Shown: piece by piece, positions 5,716 to 60,835 of the stretch
Layout: each line of letters starts with the position of its first letter
How positions within the stretch are numbered: the first letter of the stretch is position 1
NCBI GenBank assembly: GCA_028015205.1
Contig: CM051521.1
Coordinates: 125,248,614 to 125,312,613, forward strand
Source of the DNA: Mytilisepta virgata
Lineage: Eukaryota; Mollusca; Bivalvia; Mytilida; Mytilidae
Direction of reading: 5' to 3'
Length of the DNA: 64,000 bases
Notes under the pieces: generated by a model
Told to the model about the DNA's origin: nothing
Database searches by the model: none
Seen by the model: only the letters and a program-made list of their open reading frames with translations
Made by a program: the position numbers and the translations under genes

Positions 5716-5734
5716 AGAGAAACGAAGTGCATCA

Positions 5735-5945
5735 TAGAGCAATGAAATGGACCACCGAGACCTATATAGACCGATGACAGACCCAGAGTTGACCAAAAAG
5801 CGCAGGAAAGGGAGATAATCCAATCCGAATCTGGTCAAGCATGACATATCCGGTGCCAACACGTGACTAACGTCACTTCGTTAAACAAATAATGGGAAAA
5901 CCGACTACTTCCAGTTGCGCATGCGCCTAAATCACTTCCGGATCT
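5735..5945. repeat. Internal second copy of the foldback terminus
   Basis: Carries the same order of landmarks as the outer right arm at 6720-7150: cat-cat-agagcaatgaaatgg, the 'gggagataatccaatccgaat' stretch, 'ggtcaagcat', a CACGTGAC motif, then TTGCGCATGCGC. The satellite then restarts at about 5946. The right arm therefore contains a nested partial duplication, consistent with unequal exchange or a nested insertion of the same family. Confidence 0.7.
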
Positions 5946-6710: not shown

Positions 6711-7064
6711 CAAGAGAAGAAAGTGCATCATAGAGCAATGAAATGGACCGCCGTTACTAAGACACTCCTCCATTGACCTAATGGTGACAGCATCAGCTGC
6801 AGGTAAGGGGACATAATCCAATCCTACCTTTGGTCCTCCCTTGAAGGAAGGGAAAACATCACCCGTTGGGAAAAGCGCCTGAAAAGGGAGATAATCCAAG
6901 TTTCTCTGTACTTCATATACTCTCGGACTTCGACATAAAAGTGAAAATATCAGACCCTAGAGACCCTTACCCTTTACAGACCGATGAAAGACCCAGAGAC
7001 GACCGAGAAGCGTTGGAAAAGGGAGATAATCCAATCCGAATTCTGGTCAAGCATAGCACAGCCG

Positions 7065-8235: not shown

Positions 8236-8241
8236 AATAAA
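8236..8241 (+). terminator. Candidate polyadenylation signal, ADPRM copy 1
   Basis: AATAAA 140 bp after the stop codon, within 3' UTR sequence shared with copy 2 (13770-13775). Confidence 0.5.
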
Positions 8242-8509
8242 AATATTTGTTTTTATATTGTGACTTTTATTTATATTATGATACCACTAAACATGTTGCT
8301 AATTTGAAACTCCCTCAAAAAGCAAATAAACATTGCAGGTTATAATGTTATTTTATCCTTTATTCAAGTCAATAAAGTTCGGCATTATGTTGCTTAAAAG
8401 ATCAATTAAAGACCCACTTAAATCTTCATTTTAAATATAATACAGCTGATGTAAGGATATACTGGTGTCAAAATGTCAACAAACGTAACTAATAGATAAG
8501 TAATCCATA

Positions 8510-11048: not shown

Positions 11049-11481
11049 AGCCGCTGTGATAACGTCCAGAAAAATATAAAGCATATAAATATGTGTAAAT
11101 TTAACAGTTGTACATCAAACTCATACTATCAAAATTATCGTGAATAGCCCCCCCCCCTCTCCAATTTCGTACTAAATGTAAAAGAATAACAAAATTTAGG
11201 CTTTAAAAAAATAAACGGCTCAATTTTATCAGTTTTAAAAGAATATTATCTTTATATATACAGTTATATTCTTATTGTTTGCTATGATAGTATATATGTT
11301 TTCAATAGTTTGCGGAGTCGTTAATAGAACAAACAATAATCACCGAAACATTAACGAATAGATAATTATGCAAAAATAAATATAAAGATAGAAATAAAGG
11401 ATAATGATGGTGCTCATAATATTTAAAAAATTGTTTAAGAATAGATAAAAGATAAAAGAAATAATCCTGTTATTTTCAGTA

Positions 11482-12133
11482 ATGACAGCCACGAAGAGAA
11501 CATTATTACACTTTGGTTTGATAGCAGATCTACAGTATGCAGATATCGATGACGGTTACAATTTTGATAAGACAAAAAAACGCTACTACAGAAACGCCCT
11601 TAGCCTCCTTCCTAAAGCCATGAAAGAATGGGAACAACGTGATATAAAATTCATCTTACAGCTTGGTGATTTAATTGACGGTTTTTGTAAACGCGCTGAA
11701 GAGCCAGTTATTTGTTTGAATCGTATCTTGGACGTATTCGATAGAGAGAGATGGCCGGTCTGTCATGTAGTGGGTAACCATGAATTGTATAATTTTAAGA
11801 AAAATGAACTGTATGTTTCTCGCCTGTTTAAAACTTTACCCCCAAACAACAAGGCTTATTATAAAACAGAACTGTATCCAGGGCTGAGGTTGTGCGTTCT
11901 GAATACTTACGAAATTTCGACACTTGGTTCAGTTGAGGGAACTGTTGAGTACGAACGTGCATATAATGTACTCAGACAAAATCCTAACAAAGATAAGAAT
12001 GACCCAACTGGTTTGATATCTACCCAAAGGCGACTGGTGCGTTTTAATGGGGGCGTTTCAGAGGAACAATTGGAATGGTTAAAAATGGAGCTGGCGTCAG
12101 CTGTAAAGCAGCAACAGAACGTCATTGTTATAG
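11482..12133 (+). CDS. ADPRM: ADP-ribose/CDP-alcohol diphosphatase copy 2, coding exon A
   Basis: Same length (652 nt) and splice phase as copy 1, with intact GLIADLQYAD, GDLIDG (62-67) and GNHE (98-101). It differs from copy 1 at about 17 of 217 residues, including N5K, A25G, N45K, K51E, R52Q, G88R, Y94C, N106K and D133G, none in the metal-binding motifs. The ATG is again two bases after a 'ttttcag' acceptor. The donor 'ATAG|GTAATG' follows 12133. The frame continues past the donor only because of the inserted element in the intron. The retained motifs and frame suggest both paralogues are, or recently were, functional; expression of either is not shown by sequence. Confidence 0.92.
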
Positions 12134-12144
12134 GTAATGTATTA

Positions 12145-12530
12145 TCGTACTTCCCTGCGTATATATCACCCTGCTCATCCGCTCTGTAATCTCTGTATTT
12201 AAAAGGCTTTTAGGATTAGCGACGTCACAATATGAGAGCAGGACTTATTAGCGACGTCACAATGTGAGAGCAGACGTTATCAAGCTAACCTACAGGAGAA
12301 CAAAAAAGCGTAAAAAATGTCTTATACAGGGGCGACTAAAATATACTGAATTTGTATGATAAACAGATTATCGGTTTTTCTGCGTAAATATATTGTAAAA
12401 TATCAGCCGCTCGACACAATATGAATCTTAGGCTGGTTCGCTGCGCTCACTCGCCAAATATCTTCATATTGTGGCTCGCGGCTGATATTTCACGATATCA
12501 ATGTGCAGAAAACCCGATAATCTATTCTTA
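12145..12530. mobile_element. 386-bp insertion in the ADPRM copy-2 intron, flanked by TTA
   Basis: Copy 1 reads 'ggtaatgtattacacggtcg' here; copy 2 reads the same with 386 extra bases after 'gtatta', and TTA is repeated at both borders (12142-12144 and 12528-12530). A 3-bp TTA duplication fits PIF/Harbinger-type insertion, but I see no clear terminal inverted repeat for the whole insert. Its 3' half is a hairpin (12365-12523). Its 5' half has two 'ttagcgacgtcacaat' repeats (12218 and 12248). Confidence 0.7.
12365..12523. mobile_element. Hairpin MITE family member A
   Basis: Arms of ~65 bp: AGATTATCGG...TTTTCTGC...AATATCAGCCGC...CAATATGAA on the left, with the inverse on the right ending CCGATAATCT. 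The same landmarks in the same order occur at 35872-36025, so this is a repeated family. Confidence 0.65.
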
Positions 12531-13769: not shown

Positions 13770-13775
13770 AATAAA
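13770..13775 (+). terminator. Candidate polyadenylation signal, ADPRM copy 2
   Basis: AATAAA about 135 bp after the stop, in the same context as in copy 1. Confidence 0.5.
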
Positions 13776-14394
13776 AATATTGTTTTTATGTTGTGACTTT
13801 TATTTATATAATGATACCACTGATCATGTTGCTAATTTAAAACTCCCTCAAAAAGCAAATTAACATTGCAGGTTATAATGTTATTGTATCCTTTAATCAA
13901 GTCAATAAAGTTCGGCATTATATTGCTTAAAAGATCAATTGAAGACCAAGTTAAATCTTTATTTTAAATATAATACAGCTGATGTAAGGATATACTGGTG
14001 TCAAAATGTCAACAAACGTAACTAATAGATAAGTAATCCATATAATACACACTTTACTATTTGTAGTGACTAGTTACAACAGTGACTGTATATAGTCAAC
14101 AAAGGTAGTGTTTATATCAGATACTATTTTACTATTTGTAGTGTCCAGTTATGACAATGGCTTTATACTGTCAACTAGGAAAGTAGACTCTTTACTATAT
14201 GTACATGTAGTGACCACTTATTACGATGACTGTATACTGTCAAAAGTGGTAGTGTTTAAAGCAGAGACTTTACTAATTGTAGTGAATAGTTATGACAACC
14301 ACTGTATACTGTCAACAAGGGTAGTGTTTAAAGTAGACTTGCAGGCTTTACTATTTGTAGTGACTAGTTTTGACACTGACTGTATACTGGTCGA

Positions 14395-14526
14395 CTTGAC
14401 TAATCGATCAATCTGATCCCAATAGAGTTTGATCGATAAGTGTTCGATTAATTGTCCTCATCAATTGACGAGTGTTCGATAAATGATCGATAAGTGATCG
14501 ATGATCAGTTTAATTGAGTAGTCAAG
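14395..14526. mobile_element. Small hairpin inside minisatellite copy 2
   Basis: Orthologous to 8871-8988, with a short extra 'tgatcgatgatcag' stretch near its right arm. Confidence 0.55.
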
Positions 14527-16074
14527 ACTGGATACTGTCAACAACGATAATGTTAAAAGCAGACTTTTCTATTTGTAGTGACCAGTTATGATAATGACTG
14601 TATGCTGCCAACAATAGAAGTGTTTAAAGCAGACTTAATTATTTGTAGTGTCTAGTAATGGCATTGACCGTGTACTATCAATACGGGTAGTGTTTAATGC
14701 AGACACTTTAGTAGTTTTAGTCACTAGCTGTGACAATGTCTGTATACTATCAACAGTATAGTGTTTAAGGTAGATACATTACTTTTTTTTGTGACTCGCT
14801 ATGACGCCGATGATATACTGTTAACATGGTTAATGTTTAACTATTTGTAGTGACTAGTTATTACTCTGACTTTATACTGTCAGCAAGGGTAGTGTTTAAA
14901 GCAGATTTTACTATTTGTAGTGACTAGTTATGACAATGTATGCTGTCAGCAAAGATAATGTTTACAGGAGAAACTTTACTACTTGTAGTGACTAGTTATG
15001 ACACTGAAGGTATGCTGCCCGACTTGGAATTGTTTAAAGCAGACTTTACTATTTGTAGTGACTAGTTATGACATTGTATACTGCCAACCGTAGTGTTTAA
15101 AGCAGATACTTTACTATTTGTAGTGGCTAGTTATGACTCTGATTTTATACTGTCAGCAAGGGTAGTGTTTAAAGCAGATACTTTACTATTTGTAGTGACT
15201 AGTTATGACACTGACTGTGTAAAGTCAATAAGGGCAGTGTTTAAAGCAGAAACTTTAGTAGTTGTAATGACTTATGTGACAATGACTTTATACTGTCAAC
15301 CCAACAAAGATAGTGTTTAATGCAGAGAATTTACTATTTGTTGTGACTAGCTATGACACCGACTGTATACTGTTTACAACAGTTGTGTTTACAGAAGAGA
15401 CTTTACTATTTGTAGTGACTAGTAATAAAACTGACTGTATACTGTCAAAAATGGTAGTGTTTAAAGCAGACTTAATTATTTGTAGAGAAATGTTATTACA
15501 CTGACTATATACTGTCAAAAATATTAGTGTTTAAAGCATAGACTGTACTAATACTAGTGACCGGTTATGACAATGACTGTATACTGTCAGCAATTGTAGT
15601 GTTTAAAGCAGATTTTACTATTTGTAGTGACTAGTTATGACACTGTATGTTTTCAGCAGTGGTAGTGTTTAAAGCAGATTTTACTACATGTAGTGACTAG
15701 TTATGTCACAGACTGTATACTGCCCGACTTGGAAGTGTTTAAAGCAGAGACTTTACTATTTGTAGTGACTTGTTTTGACACTGACTGTACTTTACCATTT
15801 GTAGTGACTTGTTTTGATACTGACTGTACTTTACTATTTGTAGTGACGTGTTTTGACACTGACTTTACTATTTGTAGTGACCAGTTATGATGATAACTGT
15901 AAACTGCCAACAATCGTATTGTTTAAAGCAGACACTTTATAGTTGTAGTGACTAGTTATGACACTTTATGCTGTCAACAACGGAAATGTTTGAAGCAGAA
16001 ACCTTACTACTTGTAGTGACTAGCTATGACACTGGTTGTATACTGTTTACAACTCTAGTTTACTGTTTGAAGTA

Positions 16075-17799: not shown

Positions 17800-18745
17800 G
17801 TACTGTGAGCAAAGCTCACAAAGGATACCCCCCCGCTTTGAAGTCCAATTACCTCCCTTGTGTGATATCGGAAAGCAAAGATTTTTCTTCATGCACATCT
17901 TTGGATGATGTACTTCCTTTCTGTAAAGTTTTGTTGAAATCCATTGAGTGGTCTAGGAGGAGTTGCGCTTACGAGGTTCATATATAATGTATAAGCCAAA
18001 AAAAATAGAAGTCCAATTATCTCCCTTGTGTGAAATCGGAAAGCAAAGATTTTTATTCATGCACATCTCTGGATGATGTACTTCCTTTCTGTAAAGTTTT
18101 GTTGAAATCCATTGAGGGGTCTAGGAGGAGTTGCGCTTACGAGGTTCATACATAATGTATAAGCTAAAAAAAATAGAAGTCCAATTATCTCCCTTGTGTG
18201 ATATCGGAAAGCAAAGATTTTTCTTCATGCACATCTTTGGATGATGTACTTCCTTTCTGTAAAGTTTCGTTGAAATCCATTGAGCGGTCTAGGAGGAGTT
18301 GCGCTTACGAGGTTCATATATAATGTATAAGCGAAAAAAAATAGAAGTCCAATTATCTCCCTTGTGTGAAATCGGAAAGCAAAGATTTTTCTTCATGCAC
18401 ATCTCTGGATGATGTACTTCCTTTCTGTAAAGTTTCGTTGAAATCCATTGAGCGGTCTAGGAGGAGTTGCGCTTACGAGGTTCATATATAATGTATAAGC
18501 CAAAAAAAAATAGAAGTCCAATTATCTCCCTTGTGTGAAATCGGAAAGCAAAGATTTTTCTTCATGCACATCTCTGGATGATGTACTTCCTTTCTGTAAA
18601 GTTTCGTTGAAATCCATTGAGCGGTCTAGGAGGAGTTGCGCTTACAAGATATATGGACAGACGGACAGACGGACAGACGGACGGACAAGGTGATTCCTAT
18701 ATACCCCCCCAAACTTTGTTTGCGGGGGGGGGGGGGTATAACAAA
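17800..18745 (+). repeat. 168-bp tandem repeat element with C/G-tract end
   Basis: Five units with period 167-169 bp (starts at 17840, 18009, 18176, 18344 and 18513) containing 'gaagtccaattatctccctt' and 'ggtctaggaggagttgcgct'. It begins with 'actgtgagcaaagctcac' and ends with (GGACAGAC)n and a C7/G14 pair flanking 'aaactttgtttg'. A diverged relative with the same start and the same acagacgg/C-tract end occurs at 38,025-38,285. Confidence 0.85.
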
Positions 18746-21515: not shown

Positions 21516-21608
21516 TCAGAATTCTGGAAGTTTGCCTTCATTTTCTATATGATAAATTAAATCAGCTAGGGCATATTCTACCATAGTTTGTGAGGCTGCC
21601 TCAGACAT
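21516..21608 (-). CDS. ASH2L: ASH2L terminal coding exon
   Basis: Acceptor 'tttttgcag' then [17 protein letters not shown]..., ending in TGA (plus-strand tca at 21516-21518). Thirty residues including the DPY30-binding helix. A damaged partial copy of this exon lies just upstream at 21651-21697. Confidence 0.93.
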   Translation of the reverse strand: MSEAASQTMVEYALADLIYHIENEGKLPEF

Positions 21609-24600
21609 CTGCAAAAAGAAAGTTACAAACTATTTAAAGCATTTACTTGGGCATATTCTACCATAGTTTACGAGGCTGCTTCAGACATCCCTCATATTTT
21701 CTGAAAAAATATTTTCATTTAATCTTCTTTGATTTCTGAGAGAAGGACATACATATATACAGATAAGGATAACAGGATTTGCTCCTCACAGATGGGGAAA
21801 ATATCTCCAAAATAAAAATTAAATATGAAATTGGTTAAAATACTGAAATATATGCTTAAATGCTTCAATTTTTTCCATATATCCAAACAGAAACTTTAAT
21901 CAAAAGTGAATTACTCAAGAAAACAGACGACATACTAAGTCATTATAATGGTAAAATCAATGTACTCTATGTCAATACTTACAGGTCTAAAGTCTTTTAA
22001 ACCTTGAGGTGGACACTTAAATTCTGGTCCAAAATTCATCCTTACCTGAACAAAAAGAAAATTCATTCTATATACACAAATCTAAAAAATGTATAGATTA
22101 CCGGGTATAACTAATTATAGTATTTATAATTGTCATTTAAATTCAATGTACAGTTACTGATCTGTGATGTACCATATAAGATGATGAAAGTGTTGATATA
22201 TCATAAAAATATCACAAACATATAGGTATCTGAGAAATGGACCTAATCATAAATACTTAAGCACGAAAAATAGGTCATACCGATCCAATTGTTGGAAAAA
22301 ATGAATTACATGATGTAAGGGGATTATACTGATGAAGTATCATTGATGAAATAAAATGTAAAACTTTTATAGGAATCACTTGTGTGTTAAATGAAGGCCA
22401 CTGTGATCCTAATGTTGTTGTATAATATCATTGATGTATCTTAATGGGTTTCTGAGAAATAGACCTAAACACAAAAATTTAATCTCAGGTACAGACAGAC
22501 AACGGTATATTTATGCCCCATCCACATTTGTTTAATGGGGGCATAAAGAACAGCAACGATTATCAATTGCTGGTATGTATATATCTTGTGTAAGTTTTTG
22601 GTACATGTTAACAAGGACTGTGAAATAATGCTGATGAAGAAACAGTGGGATGTAGAGTGCACACAACAGTTTTTCTTAGAACTTTTCATGACGTCATGAA
22701 TTGAAGGAACATACTCAAAAGATTGATAGCTGGACAATTGGCTGTATCATATACCCATAGACAACCATATATCAAACACTGTATATAAGTATTTTTAAGG
22801 AATTCCTTTCCAAATTCTTACCGTTACAGAAAGATAACTGACAAAAAATAGGCCTCCCCCCTTCAAATATTTCAAAAACAGACCAACCTCAGAGCATCCT
22901 AGCAAAGATTCCTGTGTAATTTAGAGAACTGAGTATATATGTTTTCCAAAGTACACATTCAACTGGTTTCAGCACATGTAGTTTCAGGGTACATTCGCCC
23001 CCTTTTAAAATTGCTACATGAAGTGGTATAAAAATGTTGTGTTTTCACCTACACTATTTTTGGATGTTTTCAGAGTACATGTAGTCTCCCATTAATAAAA
23101 CTTTTCTGAAAATAATTACTTTTTTACATTTCATGCATTTTTTTAAACTTAAAATAAAGCCAAGACTCTAATTTAAATAATGAAACCAAAAAACAATCAG
23201 AAATCAATATCTAGAACTTATAAATAGAGGGAATTCCATACCTATGACATCATATATTTATAATTTAGGGGAAAATCACTGGAATTTTATACGAAACTGT
23301 TGTTTGCATTCTGTAGTGATTTTGTTCATTTGTATGTTCTGTTAAATCATTGAGCAAGGATCTATGGGAACAGTGGAAATCAAATAAACTAGATTAAACC
23401 TATTATACATCTTTTATTAAAAAAATTTCTGTGGCTTACTGTGTTTTCTCATTTTTGAGTCCCCTGTACATCTTTCAAAAACTAACCTTTTTTTATATAC
23501 ATTTCGTGATGCAATAAACAGTTTGTTTCATACTACTGGTTATATATCACTATTACAGATCACAGATTAATTATAATTTCTTATTTGTCTATTGCCAATA
23601 GATTTTATGGGGTATCATGATTTCTTTCATTTTTATAATATACAGCTGATTCTCATTGTCTCGAAATTGTTTCCAAATTTCGGTTATGTCAACAACAAAA
23701 AATTCTGGTCCCGAGCAGAGGAGAGTATAATCTATGTATTTTTATTCAATAAGTCAAAATTTCTGGTATGTCAAACTAATATTACGTACCCAGGAAATAT
23801 AATTAGTGCAAAATAAACTCATTATGTCGAATTCATTAATTATCTTTACAGGTGAACCAAATATACAAATCTGTCAATCATTAACCTGTGGGGAATTGAT
23901 GCCAGAAATATCGTTTGATTTGAATTGTGTTTTGATAACAATCTTGTTTCGACTTACATGTTTATTAGGTTGTAAAAATTAAACCTTATTGCGGATTTTA
24001 TAATAAAAATAACTCTTACAACAATAAAATGAAGGTTTTTTATAAAGTACGAGTAAACGTCCTATTGTATTGTATAAAATTTGGATTGTGTTAATGAGGC
24101 GTGACTTGCCGAAAAAGAATTTGCAAAATTAATTTAGGTCAACGTTAAAGGATATCTACTTAAAGAAATAAATTCTAATTAAAATCAATAACCTTATATC
24201 TAGACTTAATGAGACAATTGTCATTAATCAAAATTATTTACTGGTGGCCATCTTCAACTTGCAACAGGGTGTAAATTGTTTTCCGTATATGAAGGCATTA
24301 TTGTGATTTCAACCCTGTTCAACCACTTAAACTTATTGAGATTTTTTACTTATGATTTGACATGGATTGATTATGTCCTTTCTTTTATATCATAATGCAC
24401 AAAAACATCTCTTAATATTCATATGTACTGTCAAGTATCTTCTTATCTATATTCTGGTTAAAAGTTTAGAAAAATTTAATTGACATTTTGAGCAAGTTTG
24501 ATAAGAAGCACGAGAATCAAACAATAAATCATCAAACAAGTAAAAACAATCATTGAACACATGATCTTACAAAATGAATCTGGAAGTCAGTAAGTTTTTA

Positions 24601-51600: not shown

Positions 51601-54600
51601 ACAACTGTACGAAGTTTGGTTGCAATTGGACTTATGGTGTCGGACGAGTTAACGTTTGAAAAATTGTTAACAGACGACGACGACGACGGACGCCAAGTGA
51701 TGATAAAAGCTCACATGGACCTTTGGTCCAGGTGAGCTAAAAAGAGGGAAAATCACGTACAATGAAGGCTGATTATGAACAATCTTGGTTATATTGCCAA
51801 ATATACAAAGGTTCAAGTGATCAGTTCAAGACTTTTTGAATGTTCATTTTGCTGTCTTAGGCTTTTTTCTACCACTTTGCAACAATTGCTGTTTTCACTC
51901 TGTATTCTATATTAATATGCATGTCAGATCAAATATACTATAAGATTAAGCATTTATTTTATCAATTTTTAATGTTTCGATAAGACTTTTACATGTTGAT
52001 ACTTCAATATCAAATTGTTAAATCTGCCATCAACTACGATGACATACATTTTCACTTAGAAAATGAGTGGATTTGATATCTTACGGAATCAAGATATTCA
52101 TACAAAACAAACTTAAAAGCCGCATGGATTCTATTAGGAAATTTGTTTCATAAAACTTGTTTCAGAAATTGACATCAACTAATGGCTATAAATAGATTTT
52201 ATTTTTGGATCATGTTTACAAGTATTTTATTGATGGATAATCTATTTTTAGATGAATTGAAATATAATCTTTTATGAAAGTTGCTGAGAAATGGACTTAA
52301 CCAAGAAAAAGTGACAAAGTCACTCATAGATGAAATTGAAGTCAAGGTCCCAAGCCAGGTGTCAGACTGACATGTACCCACCAAGAACTATCTATTGACC
52401 AAATATGGTGGGTCTAGGTATTCTAGTGTGTGTAATGGACTAAACTGCGAAAATGTGACGCAAGCCACTCAAGCATGAAATTTAGGTCAAGGTCAAAAGG
52501 CAGGTGTCAGACTGACATGTACCTACAAAGAACTATCGATTGACCAAATACGGTGGGTCTAGGTATTACAGTTTCTGAGAATTGGACTTCACCATGAAAA
52601 ATTGACAAAGTCACTCGAGCATGAAATTGAGGTCAAGGTCCCAAGCCAGGTGTCAGAAAAAGAACTATCTATAGACTAATTATGGTTGGCCTAGGTATTA
52701 CAGTTGCTGAGAAATGGATTTAACTACAAAAATTGGACGCAGATTTTAAATTCATGTTTATGAAGTCAGTGAACCATGAAAATGAGGTCAGGGTCACAAG
52801 ACAAGTATAATGTGGCAAACCTTAAACGATAAGCTACCCTGTGGACCATAAATCTTAATTGTTTAAAAAAGTTTACGCCTTCGCCGTCGGAAAGTAATAC
52901 CTATATCTCACCTTCGTGACTTTTCGTCGCAGGCGAGACAAAAACCAAAATTTTCAATTTTATCCTTTAATCAGCAAAATCGGGTCGATGGATCCGTAAA
53001 CCAACTAATTAAAAATAAATGGCCTTAAAACTGTTATTTATTTTTTTTTATTATTGGCTAATTTTTGGAATTCTCATTGCCAAAGAAACCTGAAACTAGG
53101 TCCTGCATACTTTATAATGCTTATAGTGTTACATTGGTTTATCTTCATCACATACATAATAAAGCAATGTTGGGTACTTTTGCCCAGCTGATGATGCTCA
53201 AACATTCCAAAATAATTTTAAAACTATTTGATACACATGAAACTATTAACTGACTATTGCTGTACCATTATAACTCATGAGTATTTAGTTTTTCTAAAGG
53301 TGTTATTCTGGCAGCCCTAAAGGTAGGCCAAATAATTCTCTTAGTTTACCCTTTTGTGACATTTGCTGACCCCAAGAGTATTCTTTGAGGATCATAAATA
53401 TTTTGGTTCTCAATTTTAATGTTCTTGTAGCCAATGTGTTTCACTTGTAATTACTAGAAAAACTGTGTACACTTTCAATGGAGAGTCCTGGAGTTTCCAA
53501 ATGGTCTGACAAAACTGTGTACACTTTCAATGGAGAGTCCTGGAGTTTCCAAATGGTCTATCAGGCAAGTGATGCTTTAAAGCATTGTTCGCAAGGAAAG
53601 GGTTAATTAAGTAAATAAGTTTAAATAAGATATTACAACTTGTTCTTTACTATCTTTAGGAAGTAAATAATATGTTTAATTAAATAAAACCTTACCAGTG
53701 CCTTCAACTGCTACATATGTTTTTGCTGGTGGCTGTACAGTCTGGCTTGATTTTAGTGGTTCATAATTTGGTCCAACCTTTTCTAAATCCTACATTATAG
53801 AAAAATGTAGTTGTATTTAAAAAATAATATATTTTACACTGTATCATCTGTATTACACAGATTTCTTGGCAGTTGCAAATTAAAACTTAACTTGGCCTGT
53901 TGATTTCTTTTATGATTTTAAGCCATGTCTTAAAATTGTATGAATTTAAGTATAATAACATGTAACTATCTTTCATTAGACATTCCGTTTTGAACACCAT
54001 GTGTGTTGTCTGTAATAAACCACCCCTCACCTTTCCTCCTTTTCTAAAAATTTTATGGCATTCTGGTCGCTTAAGGATGTTCGCTGGTTATGTTTTTGAA
54101 TTTTTGTCAGATGTTCAGAATCATCTGGTTTATCCATTTGAATGCCATAAATTATTTTTCCAGCTAATACCCATTTTTTCTTTTCATAAATCTTTTGCAT
54201 GCAGAATAATAAGCCATTTGTTAAAATCTTATAAAATCATTGTTATTATTTAACAGTTTTTGAAAAATAAAACTTGTCAATGATAAAGCTATGAAAAATC
54301 AAGAGAGCATATTTTTCCCGCCAAATTTTCAATGGCTTATATCTCTAAAACAAGCACACAGACCTTAATTTTTTTCGCTCTTTAAGTTCCTTCATTAATC
54401 CACTATCAATATTTACCATTGTTATGAAAAGCTTGTTATTTTGAAACTGAGCAGCGAACATCCTTAAGGTATCCGTACCATAAATGACCACGTGATTATT
54501 TAAAAGTTCCCGGATGTTCCATACAACGCAATTGAAATGACCTCGGTAATTATCGGCAAACTTCGGAAATTCTAATATAACTAACTAATTTTTACAGACT

Positions 54601-57600
54601 CTGCATATAAGCAACACAGTGGGTTTCAACTTGAGAAAAATATATATACAAAATTCCAGCTTTAAATTGTTTGGTTCAGCCATTCACGGTCAAAAAGAGA
54701 TACAATGTTCGATCATGATCTATTATGGTCCGGATACCTTAACACAGCAAATAACATAAATTTTAGAAATGTTTCTATATTATGTTGACTTTTTTGGGCT
54801 GATATAAAGACAAAAACAACTCGATAACTTACAGGTATAATTAAACTGTAGTACTGGTCTACACCATTATCTTCTGTACAAACAAACAATCCTGTTTCCT
54901 TTGACTGAAAATACAAATGACCAATGTATATATTAAAATATTTCGGACTCAGAACTTTCTTAAAAAAAAAAAAAAAAATTCTGCATTTTTCCTAAATCTA
55001 TATTTAGCTCTAAAAATAAGAAATTAAAAAAATCCTGAAATTTATATTTTTAGAATTTATAATCAAGGATATTAAAAGCTGTATAAAATATGGCATAATT
55101 ACAATAAAATGCTCCGCTGGGCGCAGCTAGATACGACCGCAGATGTCGAACCCTGAATAGTTGGGGCAATTATGAACACAACATTCAAGCTTGATACAAT
55201 ACTGAATTTGGATTGTGAATAAATATTTGACACAGCATAGGTTTCTGACACAGAATGAATGTTGTCTAAGAACTTAAAAATTTTTAATTTACCTATTCAA
55301 ACCATATCAGTATTATTTGTTTTTATATATAAATCAGAAATAACGAATTTAAAATTTAAAATTGGGCACACATATCAATTTCTTGCTATTGCGCAATACT
55401 GTGCAATTGAAAATTTCTTGAAATATTTGACACATAATAGGTTTCTGACACAGAATAACTGAAATCAAAGAACTTAGAATTGGTCATATGATTTCAATTT
55501 ATATTCAATTTTTTGCTTCTTGTGAAATACAATATGCTGTGGAGAATTGCCCCCCCCCCCCCCCCAAAAAAAAAATAATAATTTACCCCTTTTTTTAGCT
55601 TTTGTGCAATACACTATGAAGTTGCACATTGACACCCCCCCCTCCCAAAAAAAACCCAAAAAACAATAAAATTTATTGTAACCCCCCCCACCTTTTTTTT
55701 GCTAAAAAAAATTTGAAATTTTCTTTTTAATTTATGAAATATGAAATGAGAAAAAAATTGCCCCCTCCCCAATTTCTCATTTACCACCCCCCCCCCCCCC
55801 CTAAATTTTGTTTTCACCCCCCCCCCCCCCCCCCCATTTCTTTATATTTTGCAACCATAACAGCCCATTTAAATACACCATAACGTATTAAAATAGAAAA
55901 TGACATCATAGTCATGGATGGCAAATTTTAAATATACATAATTTAAAAGCAGTTTAGATGAGATAAACAAAAAAGCTTCATCAGCACATTTTATATTGGC
56001 AAATTTCCAATGAAGTTCATTAAACTAGAGTTATTGGCAAATTTCCAATGGAATTTGTTAATAATAAAGTTTTGATAACAGGGCACACATATCAATTTCT
56101 TGCTATTGCACAATACTGTGCAATTGAAGATTTCTTGCTATTGCACAATACTGTGCAATTGAAAATTTCTTCAAATATTTGACACATAATAGGTTTCTGA
56201 CACAGAATAACTGAATGAATTTATATTCAATTTTTTGCTTCTTGTGCAATACAATATGCTGTGGAGAATTGCCCCCCCCCCCCCCCCAAAAAAAAAAAAT
56301 AATTTACCCCTTTTTTAGCTTTAATTTTGGACCCCGATTTGGGCCAACTTGAAAACTGGGCCCATAATAAAAAAACTAAGTACATGTTTAGATTCAGCAT
56401 ATCAAAGAACCCAAAGAATTCAATTTTTGTTAAAATCAAACTAAGTTTAATTTTGGACCCTTTGGACCTTAATGTAGACCAATTTGAAAACGGGACCAAA
56501 AATTAAGAATCTAAATGCACGGTTAGATTCGGCATATCAAAGAACCCCAATAGTTCAATTTTTGATGAAATCAAACAAAGTTTAATTTTGGACCCTTTTG
56601 GCCCCTAATTCCTAAACTGTTGGGACCAAAACTCAAAAAATTAATCCCAACCTTCCTTTTGTGGTCATAAACCTTGTGTTTAAATTTCATAGATTTCTAT
56701 TTACTTATACTAAAGTCATTGTGCAAAAACCAAGAAAAATGCTTATTTGGGCCCTTTTTTAGCCCCTAATTCCTAAACTGTTGGGACCAAAACTCCCAAA
56801 AACAATCCCAACCTTCCTTTTGTGGTCATAAGCCTTGTGTTAAAATTTCATAGATTTCTATTTACTTATATTAGAGTTATTGTGCGAAAACCAAGAAAAA
56901 TGCTTTTTGGGCCCTTTTTTGGCCCCTGATTCTTAAAACTGTTGGGACCAAAACTCCCAAAATCAATCCCAACCTTCCTTTTGTGGTCATAAACCTTGTG
57001 TTTAAATTTCATAGATTTCTATTAACTTATACTAAAGTTATAGTGCGAAAACCAAATGTATTTGGACGACGACGCTGACGACCGACGACGACGCCACCGC
57101 CGACGACGACGCCAATGTCATACCAATATACGACCGCAAAAATTTTGCGGTCGTATAAAAATAAATGACAATGGTTTTATCTTACTATATGTCACTTATT
57201 TTCCGAGACATTTAGTAACAGAATCTTGTGTTGTCTGGAAACTTCACTAACCTGTTTAAATTTTTTCCTGAGTAGTTTTTCAAGGAGCATTTAGTCTTTA
57301 ATGGCATTATTTGATTGTATTAAATTATACCACGTGATCATACTTTAGTGTTTTTAATCAACTGTTACCTACATTTTGAAATGATGTTGTCTAAAAGATG
57401 AGACCTCGTATCCTGTAATCTTCATACTATGATACAAATGAGAAAGCTGAATGCCATATACTAACATTAAATGTTTTAGCTACAGTAGCTTTACAAATGA
57501 GGAAGCCACATAATAAAATTAAATGACACCAATGTTTTAGCTACAGTAGCTTTACAAATGAGGAAGCCATATAATAACATTAAATGACACTTACCAATGT

Positions 57601-58791
57601 TTTAGCTACAGTAGCTTTACAAATGAGGAAGCCACTTAATAACATTAAATGACACTTACCAATGTTTTAGCTACAGTAGCTTTACAAATGAGGAAGCCAC
57701 ATAATAACATTAAATGACACCAACGTTTTAGCTACAGTAGCTTTACAAATGAGGAAGCCACATAATAACATTAAATGACACTTACCAATGTTTTAGCTAC
57801 AGTAGCTTTACAAATGAGGAAGCCACATAATAACATTAAATAACACTTACCAATATTTTAGCTACAGTAGCTTTACAAATGAGGAAGCCACATAATAACA
57901 TTAAATGACACTTACCAATGTTTTAGCTACAGTAGCTTTACAAATGAGGAAGCCACATAATAACATTAAATGAAACTTTCCAATGTTTTAGCTACAGTAG
58001 CTTTACAAATGAGGAAGCCACATAATAACATTAAATGACACTTACCAATGTTTTAGCTACAGTAGCTTTATAAAAGAGGAAGCCACATAATAACATTAAA
58101 TGACACTTACCAATGTTATAGCTACAGTAGCTTTACAAATGAGGAAGCCACATAATAACATTAAATGACACTTACCAATGTTTTAGCTACAGTAGCTTTA
58201 CAAATGAGGAAGTCACATAATAACATTAAATGACACTTACCAATGTTTTAGCTACAGTAGCTTTACAAATGAGGAAGCAACTTAATAACATTAAATGTCA
58301 CTTACCAATGTTTTAGCTACAGTAGCTTTACAAATAAGGAAGCCACATAATAACATTAAATGACACTTACAAATGTTTTAGCTACAGTAGCTTTACAAAT
58401 GAGGAAGCCACTTAATAACATTAAATGTTACTTACCAATGTTTTAGCTACAGTAGCTTTACAAATGAGGAAGCCATATAATAACATTAAATGACACTGAC
58501 CAATGTTTTAGCTACAGTAGCTTTACAAATGAGGAAGCCACATAATAACATTAAATGACACTTACCAATGTTTTAGCTACAGTAGCTTTACAAATGAGGA
58601 AGCAACTTAATAACATTAAATGACACTTACCAATGTTTTAGCTACAGTAGCTTTACAAATGAGGAAGCCACATAAAAACATTAAATGACACTTACCAATG
58701 TTTTAGCTACAGTAGTATGCCATGTCAGTTTCACCCTCCGAGGCATCGTAGTTAGGTTCTCCCATTGTTTGTCTATATATGGTATAATATC
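21516..58791 (-). CDS. ASH2L: ASH2L, SET1/MLL H3K4 methyltransferase complex subunit (12 C-terminal exons; gene span)
   Basis: Twelve minus-strand exons join without a frame break into ~420 residues that follow vertebrate ASH2L from the DIIPFIDK-like helix to the C-terminus. Recognisable stretches in order are [11 protein letters not shown] and MPRRV (end of the winged-helix DNA-binding region), a linker with [78 protein letters not shown] and LPDTYKDR (SPRY domain), [41 protein letters not shown], and a final [15 protein letters not shown] helix matching the DPY30-binding segment. ASH2L joins WDR5, RBBP5 and DPY30 in the nucleus and stimulates MLL/SET1 methylation of H3K4. The PHD-like N-terminus is not found in the window. 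Introns reach 19.4 kb; one contains a complete opposite-strand gene. The C-terminus ends ENEGKLPEF, shorter than the vertebrate tail. Confidence 0.95.
21651..21697 (-). pseudogene. Broken duplicate of the ASH2L terminal exon 5' end
   Basis: About 47 nt repeats the start of the last exon (plus-strand 'gggcatattctaccatagtt') with differences. On the minus strand, the codon for Gln7 has become TAA and the acceptor AG context is lost ('gaggg' before ATGTCT). The copy sits inside the intron between the last two exons and looks dead. Confidence 0.75.
21983..22045 (-). CDS. ASH2L: ASH2L coding exon (NFGPEFK segment)
   Basis: 63 nt, phase 0 at both ends, bounded by 'ttgttcag|GTAAGG' and 'AGACCT|GTAAGT'. 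Encodes [19 protein letters not shown] plus RP, corresponding to the SINFGP...YPP region of vertebrate ASH2L. Confidence 0.92.
23643..24709. mobile_element. Pogo/Tigger-like non-autonomous DNA element with TA target duplication
   Basis: The left end CAGCTGATTCTCATTGTCTC and the inverse right end (CAGCTGATTCTCGTTATCTC on minus) form a 20-bp terminal inverted repeat with two mismatches. TA flanks both sides (23641-23642 and 24710-24711). The 1067-bp interior has no transposase. The 'CAG...TTCTCGTTATCTCGAA' end style recalls pogo/Tigger elements of the Tc1/mariner group. Its right part contains the segment repeated at 26,328-26,552. Confidence 0.7.
24235..24470 (+). repeat. Direct repeat, copy 1 (~225 bp)
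   Basis: Nearly identical to 26328-26552, starting around 'ggccatcttcaacttgcaac' and ending around 'catatgtactgtcaagtatc'. The copy inside the pogo-like element suggests a captured or fragmentary second element at 26.3 kb. Confidence 0.8.
24767..24865 (-). CDS. ASH2L: ASH2L coding exon (YKNGVSQG segment)
   Basis: 99 nt, phase 0, acceptor 'taatttcag', donor 'TGCAGA|GTAAGT'. Encodes 33 residues with [17 protein letters not shown] and [11 protein letters not shown], matching the FYKNGVNQGVAY...FEGVYFPAISLYK region of the second half of the SPRY domain. Confidence 0.94.
24950..25655 (+). repeat. 'Ctcacctg' interspersed element, copy 2
   Basis: Starts 'caagaggctcccaagagcct' and ends 'gatgccaagtgatggcaaaagctcacatgt'-type text. 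Carries the phrase 'atggttgctagggacttttt' twice and 'ctatgttctatttttagcca'. Confidence 0.75.
25656..27764. other. ASH2L intron, no gene recognised
   Basis: Includes the second direct repeat (26328-26552). The remaining sequence is AT-rich without splice-consistent ORFs. Confidence 0.5.
26328..26552 (+). repeat. Direct repeat, copy 2
   Basis: Close copy of 24235-24470, same orientation, 2.1 kb away. Confidence 0.8.
27765..27830 (+). repeat. METGNV-type fragment
   Basis: Short plus-strand fragment starting 'aatggaaacggggaaggtgt' and ending 'ccgaccaaagagcag'. Confidence 0.7.
27929..28021 (-). CDS. ASH2L: ASH2L coding exon ([13 protein letters not shown] segment)
   Basis: 93 nt, phase 0, between 'tatttttcag' and 'AGTCAG|GTGAGA'. 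Encodes [15 protein letters not shown]...[10 protein letters not shown], the segment corresponding to LIKFKSYLYFEEKD in vertebrates. It follows the LPDTYKDR exon after a 19.4-kb intron containing the opposite-strand gene. Confidence 0.94.
28022..30487. other. Intron/intergenic sequence upstream of the nested gene
   Basis: AT-rich, with (TA)n near 28,078 and (CAATA)n near 29,420. No gene recognised. The promoter and any 5' UTR exon of the nested plus-strand gene should be here, but I see no decisive element. Confidence 0.45.
30488..31038 (+). CDS. Nested gene exon 1 (signal peptide, ectodomain, TM)
   Basis: The ATG opens the signal peptide. The donor 'CAGGG|GTATG' after 31038 leaves phase 2. 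The 29-bp segment holding this donor is directly duplicated (31033-31090), giving a second potential donor after 31067 that would shift frame. Confidence 0.75.
30488..44420 (+). CDS. Nested single-pass membrane protein gene (9 exons; gene span)
   Basis: A complete plus-strand gene inside the 28022-47436 ASH2L intron. Nine exons with consistent phases give 549 codons including the stop. Residues 1-24 ([20 protein letters not shown]...) form a signal peptide and residues ~25-120 a short ectodomain with no cysteine and no N-x-S/T site. Residues ~122-144 ([20 protein letters not shown]) form a transmembrane helix followed by HCCCRKR, a palmitoylation-like juxtamembrane motif. The ~400-residue tail is highly charged, with KSKIKAFEG, a basic RRKRAR patch, Lys/Asn/Ser-rich repeats ([12 protein letters not shown] twice) and a Ser/Thr-rich C-terminus ending [11 protein letters not shown] do not recognise a family. 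A membrane receptor-like or adhesion-linked role is only a guess. Confidence 0.75.
31039..33302 (+). other. Nested-gene intron 1
   Basis: Contains a G14 tract near 32,430 and the 48-bp minisatellite 32,720-33,105. No gene seen on either strand. Confidence 0.55.
32720..33105 (-). repeat. 48-bp minisatellite, open on both strands
   Basis: About eight units of 'gtgtggtatcccttgaactt' followed by 'gttcagtcacatcagccaca', with some 33-bp units. On the minus strand the repeat reads (A/P)[15 protein letters not shown] over 122 codons; the plus strand is open in at least two frames. It lies in an intron of both overlapping genes, with no splice sites making it an obvious exon. Confidence 0.85.
33303..33468 (+). 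CDS. Nested gene exon 2
   Basis: Acceptor 'tgtacttag', donor 'GGGGTG|GTATGT'. Encodes about 55 residues containing KSKIKAFEG and [19 protein letters not shown], the best conserved-looking part of the tail. Confidence 0.75.
34823..35050 (+). repeat. 57-bp tandem repeat, four copies
   Basis: Units of 'ggttgggactgttaatcctt' plus 'gtatagaccaaatgctgacc', nearly identical. Exactly 19 codons per unit, so one frame reads [18 protein letters not shown] repeatedly; judged a by-product of the period. Confidence 0.9.
35872..36025. mobile_element. Hairpin MITE family member B
   Basis: Arms begin GGATTATCAGGTTTGCTGCA and end with the inverse (TGCAGAGAATCC). The inner part pairs 'atatgaagcctttttggc' with 'gccaaaaggcttcatat', and 'ggctgatat' is also present. 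Same landmark order as 12365-12523. Confidence 0.7.
36261..36382 (+). CDS. Nested gene exon 3
   Basis: Acceptor 'attttttag', donor 'CTTGG|GTATAA' (phase 2). Encodes [16 protein letters not shown]... and an acidic end NPDDELG. Starts in phase 0 after exon 2. Confidence 0.7.
36404..36509 (+). repeat. 53-bp tandem duplication
   Basis: Two identical-looking copies starting 'actacatgtattatatttac', about 20 bp after the exon 3 donor. Confidence 0.9.
37224..37323 (+). CDS. Nested gene exon 4
   Basis: Acceptor 'gtattccag', donor 'GATCA|GTTAGT' (less usual but GT). Encodes [11 protein letters not shown] and an Asp-rich VDDDDEF stretch. Phases fit exons 3 and 5. Confidence 0.7.
37324..38537 (+). other. 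Nested-gene intron 4
   Basis: Contains a diverged 'actgtgagc...cagacggacagacgg...cccc' repeat at 38,025-38,285, related to the element at 17,800. No gene seen. Confidence 0.55.
38025..38285 (+). repeat. Relative of the 168-bp element (single copy)
   Basis: Starts 'gtactgtgagccattgctca' and ends with (acagacgg)n and a 'taccccc' tract, the same end structure as 17,800-18,745, without internal tandem copies. Confidence 0.6.
38538..38624 (+). CDS. Nested gene exon 5
   Basis: 87 nt, phase 0 both ends, acceptor 'aattttag', donor 'GATACT|GTGAGT'. Encodes [17 protein letters not shown] then RRKRAR, a strongly basic, possibly nuclear-localisation-like patch. Confidence 0.72.
38683..39647 (+). repeat. 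'Ctcacctg' interspersed element, copy 3
   Basis: Begins 'caagaggctcccatgagcct' and ends 'ggacaggtgagctaaaa'. Shares internal phrases with copies at 24,950 and 50,442. Confidence 0.8.
39891..40341 (+). CDS. Nested gene exon 6 (Lys/Asn/Ser-rich)
   Basis: Acceptor 'tttctttcag', donor 'AGTTAA|GTAAGT'. 451 nt, the longest cytoplasmic exon. It contains a tandem [12 protein letters not shown] duplication, a run of KDK/KNK lysine repeats, and a more ordered end ([17 protein letters not shown]). Starts in phase 0 and leaves phase 1. Confidence 0.75.
40641..40915 (+). repeat. Interspersed mussel-type repeat
   Basis: Contains 'gtgtttgtttattccacatt', a G7 tract, 'cctcccgcatttttgcgcct', 'gtcagaaacctctagccttt' and 'tttcggagtttagtgtg'. 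I recall this text as repeated across mussel genomes; it has only this copy in the window. Confidence 0.55.
41475..41543 (+). CDS. Nested gene exon 7
   Basis: Acceptor 'aatttacag', donor 'GCCAAAG|GTAAGA'. Encodes [19 protein letters not shown]. Phases 2/1 fit. Confidence 0.7.
41600..42695. mobile_element. Foldback element (~1.1 kb) interrupted by a SINE
   Basis: The left arm (about 41,603-41,850) and right arm (about 42,207-42,340 continuing at 42,618-42,690) are inverse copies. Paired landmarks are 'atgacccctacatttgggc' with 'gccctaatgtaggggtcgtt', 'tccaggttga' with 'tcaacctgga', and 'attttacgattgctgcaatg' with 'catcgcaacaatcgtaaaat'. The SINE at 42,341 splits the right arm. No coding capacity. 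Confidence 0.75.
42341..42608 (+). mobile_element. tRNA-derived SINE with 9-bp target duplication
   Basis: The head is tRNA-like: TGGCCGAGTGG (A box, ~42357-42367) and GTTTGAATCTC (B box, ~42426-42436). A central region with 'actccggcttctttcacca' and 'acggcgtaaaaccccaac' recalls the Meta-core SINEs of bivalves, and the tail is (AAAC)n. Target duplication ACATATGAG lies at 42332-42340 and 42609-42617. It is a polymerase III retroposon, not a functional tRNA gene. Confidence 0.85.
43540..43571 (+). CDS. Nested gene exon 8 (32 nt)
   Basis: Small exon between 'tatttcag' and 'ACAGAG|GTAATA', encoding [11 protein letters not shown] with the split first codon. Phases fit exons 7 and 9. Confidence 0.65.
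43870..44135 (+). repeat. Interspersed element ending 'ggcggggcataaa'
   Basis: Contains partial repeats of 'caagtgttgctgaacagtgt' and 'gtactatacaagaggactgt' (also at 43,800) and ends in a 'tatatgccctagccacattc' stretch. A relative occurs at 22,240-22,545. Confidence 0.65.
44352..44420 (+). CDS. Nested gene terminal exon
   Basis: Acceptor 'tatttttcag', then [19 protein letters not shown] and TAI, stop TAA at 44418-44420. Candidate polyadenylation signals AATAAA at 44595-44600 and 45307-45312. Confidence 0.7.
   Translation, partial: NTSDKFSGKNRSSTDISSSTAI
44595..44600 (+). terminator. Candidate polyadenylation signal, nested gene
   Basis: First AATAAA after the stop (175 bp). Another at 45307-45312. 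Confidence 0.35.
45064..45301 (+). repeat. Two local tandem duplications
   Basis: 'ccctgatcatggatctgaaa' occurs twice (about 45,072-45,125), and a ~61-bp unit starting 'aatattgtgttaatttgtgc' occurs twice (about 45,180-45,301). Confidence 0.85.
45302..47436. other. ASH2L intron, no gene recognised
   Basis: Contains (TTTTG)n/G-tract near 45,925-45,970, a (GGAT)n microsatellite at 46,672-46,694, and a possible interspersed element at 46,690-46,910 ('tagctcacgcaggaaggcat'). Confidence 0.5.
47437..47633 (-). CDS. ASH2L: ASH2L coding exon ([22 protein letters not shown] core)
   Basis: 197 nt with borders 'attgtag|GTAATT' and 'GACAGA|GTAAGT'. Encodes [18 protein letters not shown], then [25 protein letters not shown] and LPDTYKDR, the most diagnostic ASH2L SPRY block. 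Phase 2 in, phase 0 out. Confidence 0.96.
48008..48097 (-). CDS. ASH2L: ASH2L coding exon (GSWYYEV segment)
   Basis: 90 nt, borders 'atttttag|GTGTTG' and 'TCATTAG|GTAACA'. Encodes [19 protein letters not shown] and [10 protein letters not shown], matching the GAWYFEI...MPPDTAARLGWS strand pair of the SPRY fold. Confidence 0.94.
48473..48550 (-). CDS. ASH2L: ASH2L coding exon ([12 protein letters not shown] segment)
   Basis: 78 nt, borders 'cccttttcag' and 'ACAAATG|GTATGG'. Encodes [13 protein letters not shown] and [12 protein letters not shown], almost identical to vertebrate ASH2L. Confidence 0.95.
49675..49892 (-). CDS. ASH2L: ASH2L coding exon ([14 protein letters not shown] segment)
   Basis: 218 nt, borders 'taattccag|TGATAT' and 'GATAGAG|GTAGGA'. 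Encodes [20 protein letters not shown], then [33 protein letters not shown] and LLSLNDR. This is the conserved pre-SPRY block. Confidence 0.95.
50195..50264 (-). CDS. ASH2L: ASH2L coding exon (GRGAKRK linker)
   Basis: 70 nt, borders 'tttcttag|GGAAAG' and 'AAAGGAG|GTAAAC'. Encodes [18 protein letters not shown] and FKLKRS. The KGRGAKRK motif is shared with vertebrate ASH2L. Confidence 0.9.
50442..51740 (+). repeat. 'Ctcacctg' interspersed element, copy 4 (longest)
   Basis: Starts 'caagaggctcccaggagcct', then 'cgctcacctggtcc', and ends 'ggtccaggtgagctaaaa' after (GAC)n, so the ends are inverse around GCTCACCTGGTCC. A ~280-bp segment is duplicated inside (about 50,865-51,150 and 51,365-51,640). 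No ORF of note. Confidence 0.85.
52265..52945 (+). repeat. ~165-bp tandem element ending 'gtcgcaggcgagac'
   Basis: Three to four diverged units of 'agccaggtgtcagactgaca', 'aagaactatctattgaccaa' and 'gggtctaggtatt...gagaaatgga'. The end 'cttttcgtcgcaggcgagac' resembles both borders of the 147-bp element at 59,050-60,830, so the two are probably related. Confidence 0.65.
53462..53568 (+). repeat. 53-bp tandem duplication
   Basis: 'actgtgtacactttcaatgg' through 'tttccaaatggtct' appears twice in direct succession. Confidence 0.9.
53696..53789 (-). CDS. ASH2L: ASH2L coding exon (linker)
   Basis: 94 nt, phase 0 in, phase 1 out; borders 'ataatgtag' and 'GCACTG|GTAAGG'. Encodes [18 protein letters not shown] then [10 protein letters not shown]. 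The DL..(I/V)GP.Y pattern follows the vertebrate linker. Confidence 0.88.
53900..54070. other. Intron sequence between exon and MITE pair
   Basis: Nothing recognised. Confidence 0.4.
54075..54463. mobile_element. piggyBac-like MITE 1
   Basis: 389 bp with a perfect 12-bp terminal inverted repeat, GGATGTTCGCTG ... CAGCGAACATCC, flanked by TTAA at 54071-54074 and 54464-54467. TTAA duplication is characteristic of piggyBac-type transposition. No transposase. Confidence 0.75.
54468..54738. mobile_element. piggyBac-like MITE 2, abutting MITE 1
   Basis: 271 bp with ends GGTATCCGTACC ... GGTCCGGATACC (11/12 inverse match), flanked by TTAA at 54464-54467 and 54739-54742. The left TTAA is the same four bases that form the right TTAA of MITE 1. 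Confidence 0.75.
54833..54904 (-). CDS. ASH2L: ASH2L coding exon (SKETGLFV segment)
   Basis: 72 nt, phase 0 both ends, borders 'tattttcag' and 'ATACCT|GTAAGT'. Encodes [19 protein letters not shown] then SLIIP. The leading S-K-E follows the vertebrate pattern after the VAKTL-type helix; the rest of this linker is variable. Confidence 0.85.
54905..57150. other. ASH2L intron with repeated C-tract segments
   Basis: The block at 55,365-55,610 ('cacacatatcaatttcttgc', 'gtttctgacacagaataact', 'ctgtggagaattgcccc') is repeated at 56,080-56,330. Very long C tracts lie at 55,550-55,565, 55,788-55,801, 55,817-55,835 and 56,272-56,287. Frames on the minus strand here read Gly/Phe-rich junk. Confidence 0.65.
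56320..57155 (+). repeat. ~180-bp tandem element with (GAC)n and hairpin end
   Basis: Three units of 'cctaattcctaaactgttgg', 'caaccttccttttgtggtca' and 'ttcatagatttctatttact', preceded by 'ttaattttggaccc' copies. Ends in (GACGACGAC)n and the palindrome ATACGACCGCAAAAATTTTG...CGGTCGTAT. Confidence 0.75.
57462..58695 (-). repeat. 65-bp tandem array copying an ASH2L exon end and its 5' splice site
   Basis: Nineteen units directly abut ASH2L exon 58696-58791 on its intron side. Each unit, read on minus, is the exon's last 20 nt (CTACTGTAGCTAAAACATTG), then GTAAGTGTCATTTAATG, then 'ttattatgtggcttcctcat' and 'ttgtaaag'. Thirteen of the nineteen keep TTG|GTAAG; others have GGTGTC, GGAAAG or similar changes. 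Unit starts on the plus strand step by 65 (58,054, 58,119, 58,184 ... 58,704). The array therefore contains many extra potential donors for one exon. Confidence 0.93.
58696..58791 (-). CDS. ASH2L: ASH2L coding exon ([11 protein letters not shown], end of winged helix)
   Basis: 96 nt, phase 0, borders 'tttattgcag' and 'AACATTG|GTAAGT'. Encodes [19 protein letters not shown] and [13 protein letters not shown], matching the vertebrate DIIPFIDKYWE...MPRRV helix. A second frame reads [19 protein letters not shown] before a stop, but only the first frame joins the downstream exons. This is the most upstream ASH2L exon I can place with confidence. Confidence 0.93.
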
Positions 58792-59044: not shown

Positions 59045-60835
59045 TTTTTATAATTTTCGTCAAGCCTGCGACTTTAGTCGCAGAAAGCTCGACATAGGGA
59101 TGGTGATCCGGCCGCCGCGGCGGCGTTAACTTCTTAAAAGCTTTATATTTTAGAAGGTGGAAGACCTAGATGCTTTATACTTGGTATATAGATGCCTTAT
59201 GTTACAAAGTTTCCGTCTGTCATATGTACATTGTCCTTGACCTCATTTTCATGGTTCAGTGACTACTTGAAAAAAAAAGTTAACATTTTTTGTAATGTTA
59301 ATTTCTCTCTTATTATGAGTAATAGGATAACTATATTTGGTATGTGCGTACCTTACAAGGTCCTCATCCCTGTCAGACAGTTTTCAATTGACCTCGACCC
59401 CATTTCAAGGATCAGTGAACAAGGTTAAGTTTTGGTGGTCAAGTCCATATCTCAGATACTATAAGCAATAGGTCTACTATATTTGGTGTATGGAAGGATT
59501 GTAAGGTGTACATGTCCAATTGGCAGGTGTCATCTGACCTTGACCTCATTTTCATTGTTCAGTGGTTATAAGTTTTTGGGTTTTGCCTGTTTTTTTAATA
59601 CTGTATGCAATAGGTCTACTAAATTTGGTGTATGGAAGGATTGTAAGGTGTACATGTCCAACTGGCAGGTGTCATCCGACCTTGACCTCATTTTCATGGT
59701 TCAGTGGTTATAGTTAAGTTTTTGTGTTTTGGCCTGTTTTTCGAATACTGTATGCAATAGGTCTACTATATTTGGTGTATGAAAGGATTGTAACGTGTAC
59801 ATGTCCAACTGGCAGGTGTCATCCGACCTTGACCTCATTTTCTTGTTCAGTGGTTATAGTTAAGTTTTTGTGTTTTGGCCTGTTTTTCGAATACTGTATG
59901 CAATAGGTCTACTATATTTGGTGTATGGAAGGATTGTAAGGTGTACATGTCCAACTGGCAGGTGTCATCCGACCTTGACCTCAATTTTATGGTTCAGTGG
60001 TTATAGTTAAGTTTTTGTGTTTTGGCCTGTTTTTCGAAAACTGTATGCAATAGGTCTACTATATTTGGTGTATGGAAGGATTGTAAGGTGTACATGTCCA
60101 ACTGGCAGGTGTCATCCGACCTTGACCTCAATTTTATGGTTCAGTGGTTATAGTTAAGTTTTTGTGTTTTGGCCTGTTTTTCGAATACTGTATGCAATAC
60201 GTCTACTATATTTGGTGTATGGAAGGATTGTAAGGTGTACATGTCCAACTGGCAGGTGTCATCCGACCTTGACCTCATTTTCATGGTTCAGTTGTTATAG
60301 TTAAGTTTTTGTGTTTTGGCCTGTTTTTCGAATACTGTATGCAATAGGTCTACTATATTTGGTGTATGGAAGGATTGTAAGGTGTACATGTCAAACTGGC
60401 AGGTGTCATCCGACCTTGACCTCAATTTTATGGTTCAGTGGTTATAGTTAAGTTTTTGTGTTTTGGCCTGTTTTTCGAATACTGTATGCAATAGGTCTAC
60501 AATATTTGGTGTATGGAAGGATTGTAAGGTGTACATGTCCAACTGGCAGGTGTCATCCGACCCTGACCTCATTTTCATGGTTCAGTTGTTATAGTTAAGT
60601 TTTTGTGTTTTGGCCTGTTTTTCGAATACTGTATGCAATAGGTCTACTATATTTGGTTTATGGAAGGATTTTAAGGTGAATATGTCCAACTAGCAGGTGT
60701 CACCCGACCTTGACCTAATTTTCATGGTTCAGTGGTTATAGTTAAGTTTTTGTGTTTTGGCCTGTTTTTCGAATACTGTATGCAATATGTCTGATAGCAT
60801 TAGAAATGCACGACAGGCGAGACATTTTTGTGTGT
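59045..60835 (+). repeat. 147-bp tandem array and flanking ends
   Basis: Nine units of 'gcaataggtctactatattt', 'ggtgtatggaaggattgtaa', 'ccaactggcaggtgtcatcc' and 'ttttggcctgtttttcgaat'. Unit starts at 59900, 60047, 60194, 60341, 60488, 60635 and 60782 are exactly 147 bp apart. It begins with 'agcctgcgactttagtcgca' plus a 'ccggccgccgcggcggcg' patch and ends 'cgacaggcgagacatt'. Confidence 0.9.

Follow-up and report, generated by a model that had tools for sequence, protein, structure and literature searches.

A minisatellite across an ASH2 exon-intron boundary in the mussel Mytilisepta virgata repeats the end of the exon together with its donor site

What becomes of splicing when the donor of a coding exon is followed, within its own intron, by a long row of near copies of itself? 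A 64,000-nt stretch of the genome of the bivalve Mytilisepta virgata (contig CM051521.1, positions 125,248,614 to 125,312,613; hereafter the window) raises this question at an exon of ASH2, where one acceptor and one authentic donor are accompanied by thirteen donor copies with the same core, the copies lie mostly at 65-nt steps, and use of any donor but the first would show as the same stop. The locus can thus serve as a naturally occurring experiment on how 5' splice sites compete. The first-pass annotation, made from the sequence alone, had described approximately 19 units repeating the last 20 nt of the exon with its donor, thirteen of them retaining TTG/GTAAG, and both counts held. TRF placed the array at 57470-58715 (period 65, 19.3 copies, 94% matches, score 2261), and the anchor CTACTGTAGCTA was found 20 times on the minus strand, at the authentic exon end (58715) and in 19 copies downstream, the unit being composed of the last 20 nt of the exon and ~45 nt of intron. 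The core TTGGTAAG was present at 14 of the 20 anchors, i.e., in 13 of the 19 copies, and GT at +1/+2 was retained in 17/19; the last copy (57488) has no donor, and both 61-bp copies carry an identical 4-nt deletion inside GTAAGT that leaves a GT in place. The 18 complete copies were 88-100% identical (mean 95%, gaps taken as differences), and adjacent copies were as divergent as copy pairs in general (3.35 differences with gap columns included), so that no gradient of homogenisation was found between neighbouring copies, which were no more alike than others. Each copied exon piece is preceded by the acceptor-like end TTTGTAAAG, which reads AAG rather than YAG. The span given for the array in that annotation, 57462..58791, has the exon inside it. 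Coordinates are collected in Table 1.

The assignment of the exon to ASH2L proved right, as evidenced by a full-length match of its 32 residues to the ASH2L chains 3rsn (E 3.3e-06) and 3s32 (E 3.7e-06). Eleven ASH2 exons could be given set limits, spanning 58791 to 21983. A search with the protein from ten of them found 931 relatives (E no higher than 0.001), and the best among the 120 listed was an ASH2-like protein of Mytilus californianus (84% identity), followed by two sequences at 81-82% and then Magallana gigas at 73%. Residues 1-136 of the Mytilus protein had no convincing match within the 64-kb window, and no ASH2 exon was found in the 5.2 kb upstream of exon Ea; the upstream ASH2 exons should therefore lie beyond 64000, with an upstream intron of at least 5.2 kb. 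In one relative (P0003, 82% identity) the three residues TWH are missing immediately ahead of the segment that the array copies, which might mark a rearrangement at the corresponding site in another mussel. The intron just upstream of exon Ea holds an array of its own, with a 147-bp unit (59456-60792, 9.1 copies, 95% matches).

Table 1. Positions of the ASH2 exons and of the parts of the repeat array in the window
Feature	Positions	Strand	Remarks
ASH2 exon Ea	58696..58791	-	96 nt, phase 0-0; acceptor TTATTGCAG; authentic donor TTG/GTAAGTGT at 58695
Repeated exonic piece	58696..58715	-	CTACTGTAGCTAAAACATTG, last 20 nt of exon Ea
Complete copies downstream of exon Ea (18)	57489..58650	-	16 of 65 bp, 2 of 61 bp (starts 57740, 57549)
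Terminal 19th copy	57462..57488	-	donor absent; 13 nt missing between two CATT repeats
ASH2 intron containing the array	54905..58695	-	3791 nt
ASH2 exon Eb	54833..54904	-	72 nt, phase 0-0; next exon after Ea, starts 54904
ASH2 exon Eb2	53696..53789	-	94 nt
ASH2 exon Ec	50264-50195	-	
ASH2 exon Ed	49892-49675	-	
ASH2 exon Ee	48550-48473	-	
ASH2 exon Ef	48097-48008	-	
ASH2 exon Eg	47633-47437	-	
ASH2 exon Eh	28021-27929	-	
ASH2 exon Ei	24865-24767	-	
ASH2 exon Ej	22045-21983	-	
C-terminal ASH2 coding stretch	21525..21688	-	tblastn only, approximate limits

Joining the first donor to the start of the next exon, which the first-pass annotation had rightly set at 54904, left the reading frame open, and among the donors tried it was the only one to do so: all of the other GT-bearing donors (17/17) gave VSVI and then a stop. 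The earlier expectation that a distal donor leads to a stop was therefore correct, and read-through of the first donor spells the same V S V I and stop. Inclusion of the 20-nt piece as a microexon, tried for 1 to 6 pieces, in every case gave LL and then a stop (CTA CTG TAG). Because a prompt stop follows from every distal donor or microexon, the array could only lower output, and it cannot add useful protein variety. The joint between exons Ea and Eb was free of insertions in all 27 relatives aligned across it (of 120 listed and 931 found), which is the product expected from the first donor. Tandem units thus span an authentic boundary that is kept and coding, and many of them keep their splice signals, features shared with the exon-intron-boundary minisatellites called 'mirages' in lancelets; the exon end and donor are also repeated more than ten times, as in a donor VNTR of the type known from human CBS. 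The array adds a gene and, to judge by the literature searched, a phylum to those known to carry minisatellites of this boundary-spanning kind.

The array is probably a splicing-silent passenger, with the first donor winning by exon definition. Its seed would have been a tandem duplication spanning the junction between the 3' end of the exon and the beginning of the intron, and the array would then have grown inside the intron by slippage or unequal exchange, the copied donors being carried along as passengers. Exon definition would pair the exon's acceptor with the first and nearest donor, which matches U1 at least as well as any copy does, and splicing would remove the entire array along with the intron; on established knowledge of nonsense-mediated decay, the rare use of a copy would produce an early-stop transcript that is cleared by that pathway. 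The earlier view that the array was seeded at the exon/intron junction fits the structure of the unit and its surroundings. The terminal flank TTTCTCATTTGTATCATAG resembles the unit's TTCCTCATTTGTA and then diverges, and at the unit junction AAG is followed by the CTACTG of the exon. This suggests that three intervening bases were left where intron sequence became rejoined to the exon, in which case the acceptor-like AAG would be a by-product of the join. The two 4-nt deletions in GTAAGT and the 13-nt deletion between CATT repeats are such as slippage would produce. Within the window, no further copies of the unit were found beyond 12-nt matches, and none of the 19 other exon edges (10 exons) was copied, except for one 16-nt match at the Ec acceptor. 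An exact-match search of viral_contigs, which may omit near records, did not return the unit, and known RNA families gave 0 matches at gathering scores.

The placement of the array is no great surprise in DNA so rich in repeats. Thirty merged tandem arrays with a period of 20 or more occupy 11,046 of the 64,000 bases (17%), and when one unit per array was placed at random, at least one of 22 exon edges was covered in 41% of trials, a crude estimate (0.41) that rests on random placement and on the edges of 11 exons, the twelfth stretch (21688-21525) being left uncounted; with whole arrays, an exon edge was covered in 90% of trials. Apart from the ASH2 array, none of the 30 touches any of the 11 exons.

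Several other features were observed in the window. Two similar open frames on the plus strand (229-927 and 11449-12189) encode a calcineurin-like phosphoesterase domain (PF00149), and two pairs of 300-nt segments are 96% (188-487 versus 11423-11722) and 95% identical (8240-8539 versus 13773-14072), as would be seen after a tandem duplication. Downstream of each phosphoesterase frame is a degenerate block of 72-bp repeats (8517-10075 and 14206-15869), the two blocks sharing a similar consensus (GGTAGTGTTTAAAGCAGA...). Arrays of related 21/113/145-bp units at 2089-2724 and 5287-6720 have consensus units that are reverse-complementary to each other, and a 168-bp array is found at 17840-18645 (4.8 copies at 97%). 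A 161-aa open frame on the minus strand (3581-4066) contains motifs of the CxxC type and matched no Pfam family (E up to 0.001).

The array need not be silent. If the share of splicing taken by the copies grew with their number, stop-bearing ASH2 transcripts would accumulate and allele length would set ASH2 dosage. The authentic donor forms a U1 duplex of approximately -11 kcal/mol that no copy betters; of the 10 other donors in ASH2, 9 are weaker and that of Eh is its equal (-11.2). Among the 266 GT sites between the end of exon Ea and the next exon, however, 12 sites including the authentic donor tie for the best U1 match, so that competition between donors is possible. Predicted accessibility was likewise no obstacle to the copies, with 6, 9 and 11 of the 13 intact copies more open than the authentic donor under three settings. 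Shielding of the copies by RNA structure had been considered because in 57-nt contexts a copy folded at -12.9 kcal/mol (z -1.88) versus -8.6 kcal/mol (z -0.35) for the authentic donor; it was dropped when, in longer contexts, the copies proved no less open than the authentic donor. All such splicing errors would end at one stop. The human CBS 31-bp VNTR, written c.1444_1467+7(16_21) (PMC2630376), has the same anatomy, and according to two secondary sources CBS activity falls as repeats rise (PMC5188458, PMC1395315). A copy-number-dependent leak is therefore a serious rival to a silent array.

Three observations nevertheless make such a leak unlikely. The copied donors show no sign of constraint in a comparison of 18 copies (excluding the authentic unit and the last copy, which is broken), although its 24 substitutions in total give it small power: 3 of 162 cells were substituted in donor columns -3 to +6 against 21 of 1008 elsewhere (Fisher P 1.0), and 4 of 360 in the 20 exonic columns against 20 of 810 (P 0.18). 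The array thus has the premature stop in the alternative product that marks a poison exon or NMD switch, but not the constraint on alternative splice sites, a comparison of low power within one array. In addition, the introns on both sides of exon Ea are long and exon definition should apply, which favours the first donor. This is the setting of five mammalian-cell minigenes in which the upstream of two identical strong donors was used exclusively (PMC9225289); in the same work, weakening the donors caused larger exons to be skipped, and intron definition favoured the downstream donor. Finally, RT-PCR in lancelets is reported to suggest that mirages do not disturb regular splicing (PMC3087553, PMC3902484). 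The decoy or dosage role raised by the first-pass annotation is possible but draws no support from the sequence, in which the copied donors show no sign of constraint and the flanking introns are long. By analogy with CBS, a further step may be imagined in which the array acts as a length-variable splicing rheostat, the number of decoy donors setting the share of stop-bearing transcripts and so tuning ASH2 dosage in mussels. We consider this doubtful; if it were true, minisatellite alleles would tune the dosage of an H3K4 methyltransferase cofactor, much as the CBS VNTR may act on its own gene.

U1 protects against premature polyadenylation, and the array could in principle have been selected to gather U1 snRNP near the start of the intron, marking the exon or guarding against such polyadenylation. 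The sites in the intron that match U1 best do lie in the array, and 8 AATAAA/ATTAAA words occur in the intron downstream of it, but the TTGGTAAG core is lost in 6 of the 19 copies and the donor columns are as variable as the rest, and we hold selection of this kind to be very improbable. Tandem arrays are often mis-sized in assemblies, and the unit number, or the array itself, might be wrong, as one lancelet mirage is reported to appear misassembled in the draft genome (PMC3087553). Against this, private and shared variants run through the copies in an ordered array that ends in a degenerate copy and a flank that has diverged; neither a simple collapse nor a loop would leave such a pattern, and the chance of an artefact appears slim. 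It is scarcely credible that an intron or exon is being born here, with the AAG and donor of each unit framing a nascent 20-nt exon: the AG and mostly GT around the 20 nt that had led the first-pass annotation to suggest microexons are present, and mirages have been proposed as a source of new introns (PMC3087553), but the acceptor is AAG and not YAG, any inclusion reads into the CTA CTG TAG stop with no full protein, and introns between neighbouring copies would be only 45 nt (41 in two).

The first-pass annotation had regarded a satellite seeded by an exon/intron junction as unusual, a claim weakened by the known systems that share this anatomy. Lancelet (amphioxus) mirages, in which exon-intron boundaries are duplicated in minisatellite fashion, occur in Adh3, the globins BflGb6 and BflGb9, and troponin C, with imperfect repeats similar to them in PGBD5, and their length is reported to be unstable (PMC3087553, PMC3902484). 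The ASH2 array resembles them in that tandem copies span the boundary, many units keep AG/GT and the authentic boundary is intact, and it resembles BflGb9 in particular in that the 3' boundary of the exon is copied. It differs in its units, those of BflGb6 numbering 6 and 3 at 150-160 bp, that of BflGb9 measuring 157 bp and those of Adh3 10-72 bp; mirages also occur in another phylum and other genes, and they are backed by RT-PCR and allele data, whereas the ASH2 array is known from one sequence. We read the CBS notation as 16-21 repeats of a unit made of 24 nt from the exon end and 7 nt from the start of the intron. Copied donors and a nearly equal number of repeats (19 versus 16-21) are thus common to both loci, while the CBS unit is shorter, known to be polymorphic and linked to enzyme activity, and gene and phylum differ. 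Human genes in segmental duplications have internal tandem repeats at exon-intron boundaries, where the ASH2 minisatellite units also lie, but those repeats are reported to change introns and isoforms (PMC2812944), whereas every change tried in ASH2 gives a stop. For molluscs, literature titles and the openings of abstracts, with partial journal coverage and hence as weak evidence, yielded no boundary-spanning minisatellite; the intronic repeats described in two molluscan papers, a 27-bp repeat in abalone and tandem repeats in Mytilus lysozyme introns, are not said there to span a boundary, nor are any repeats in passages of the three reports considered (PMC6905558, PMC12294457, PMC3448621). 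The ASH2 array suggests that boundary-spanning minisatellites, known from lancelets and humans, occur in molluscs too.
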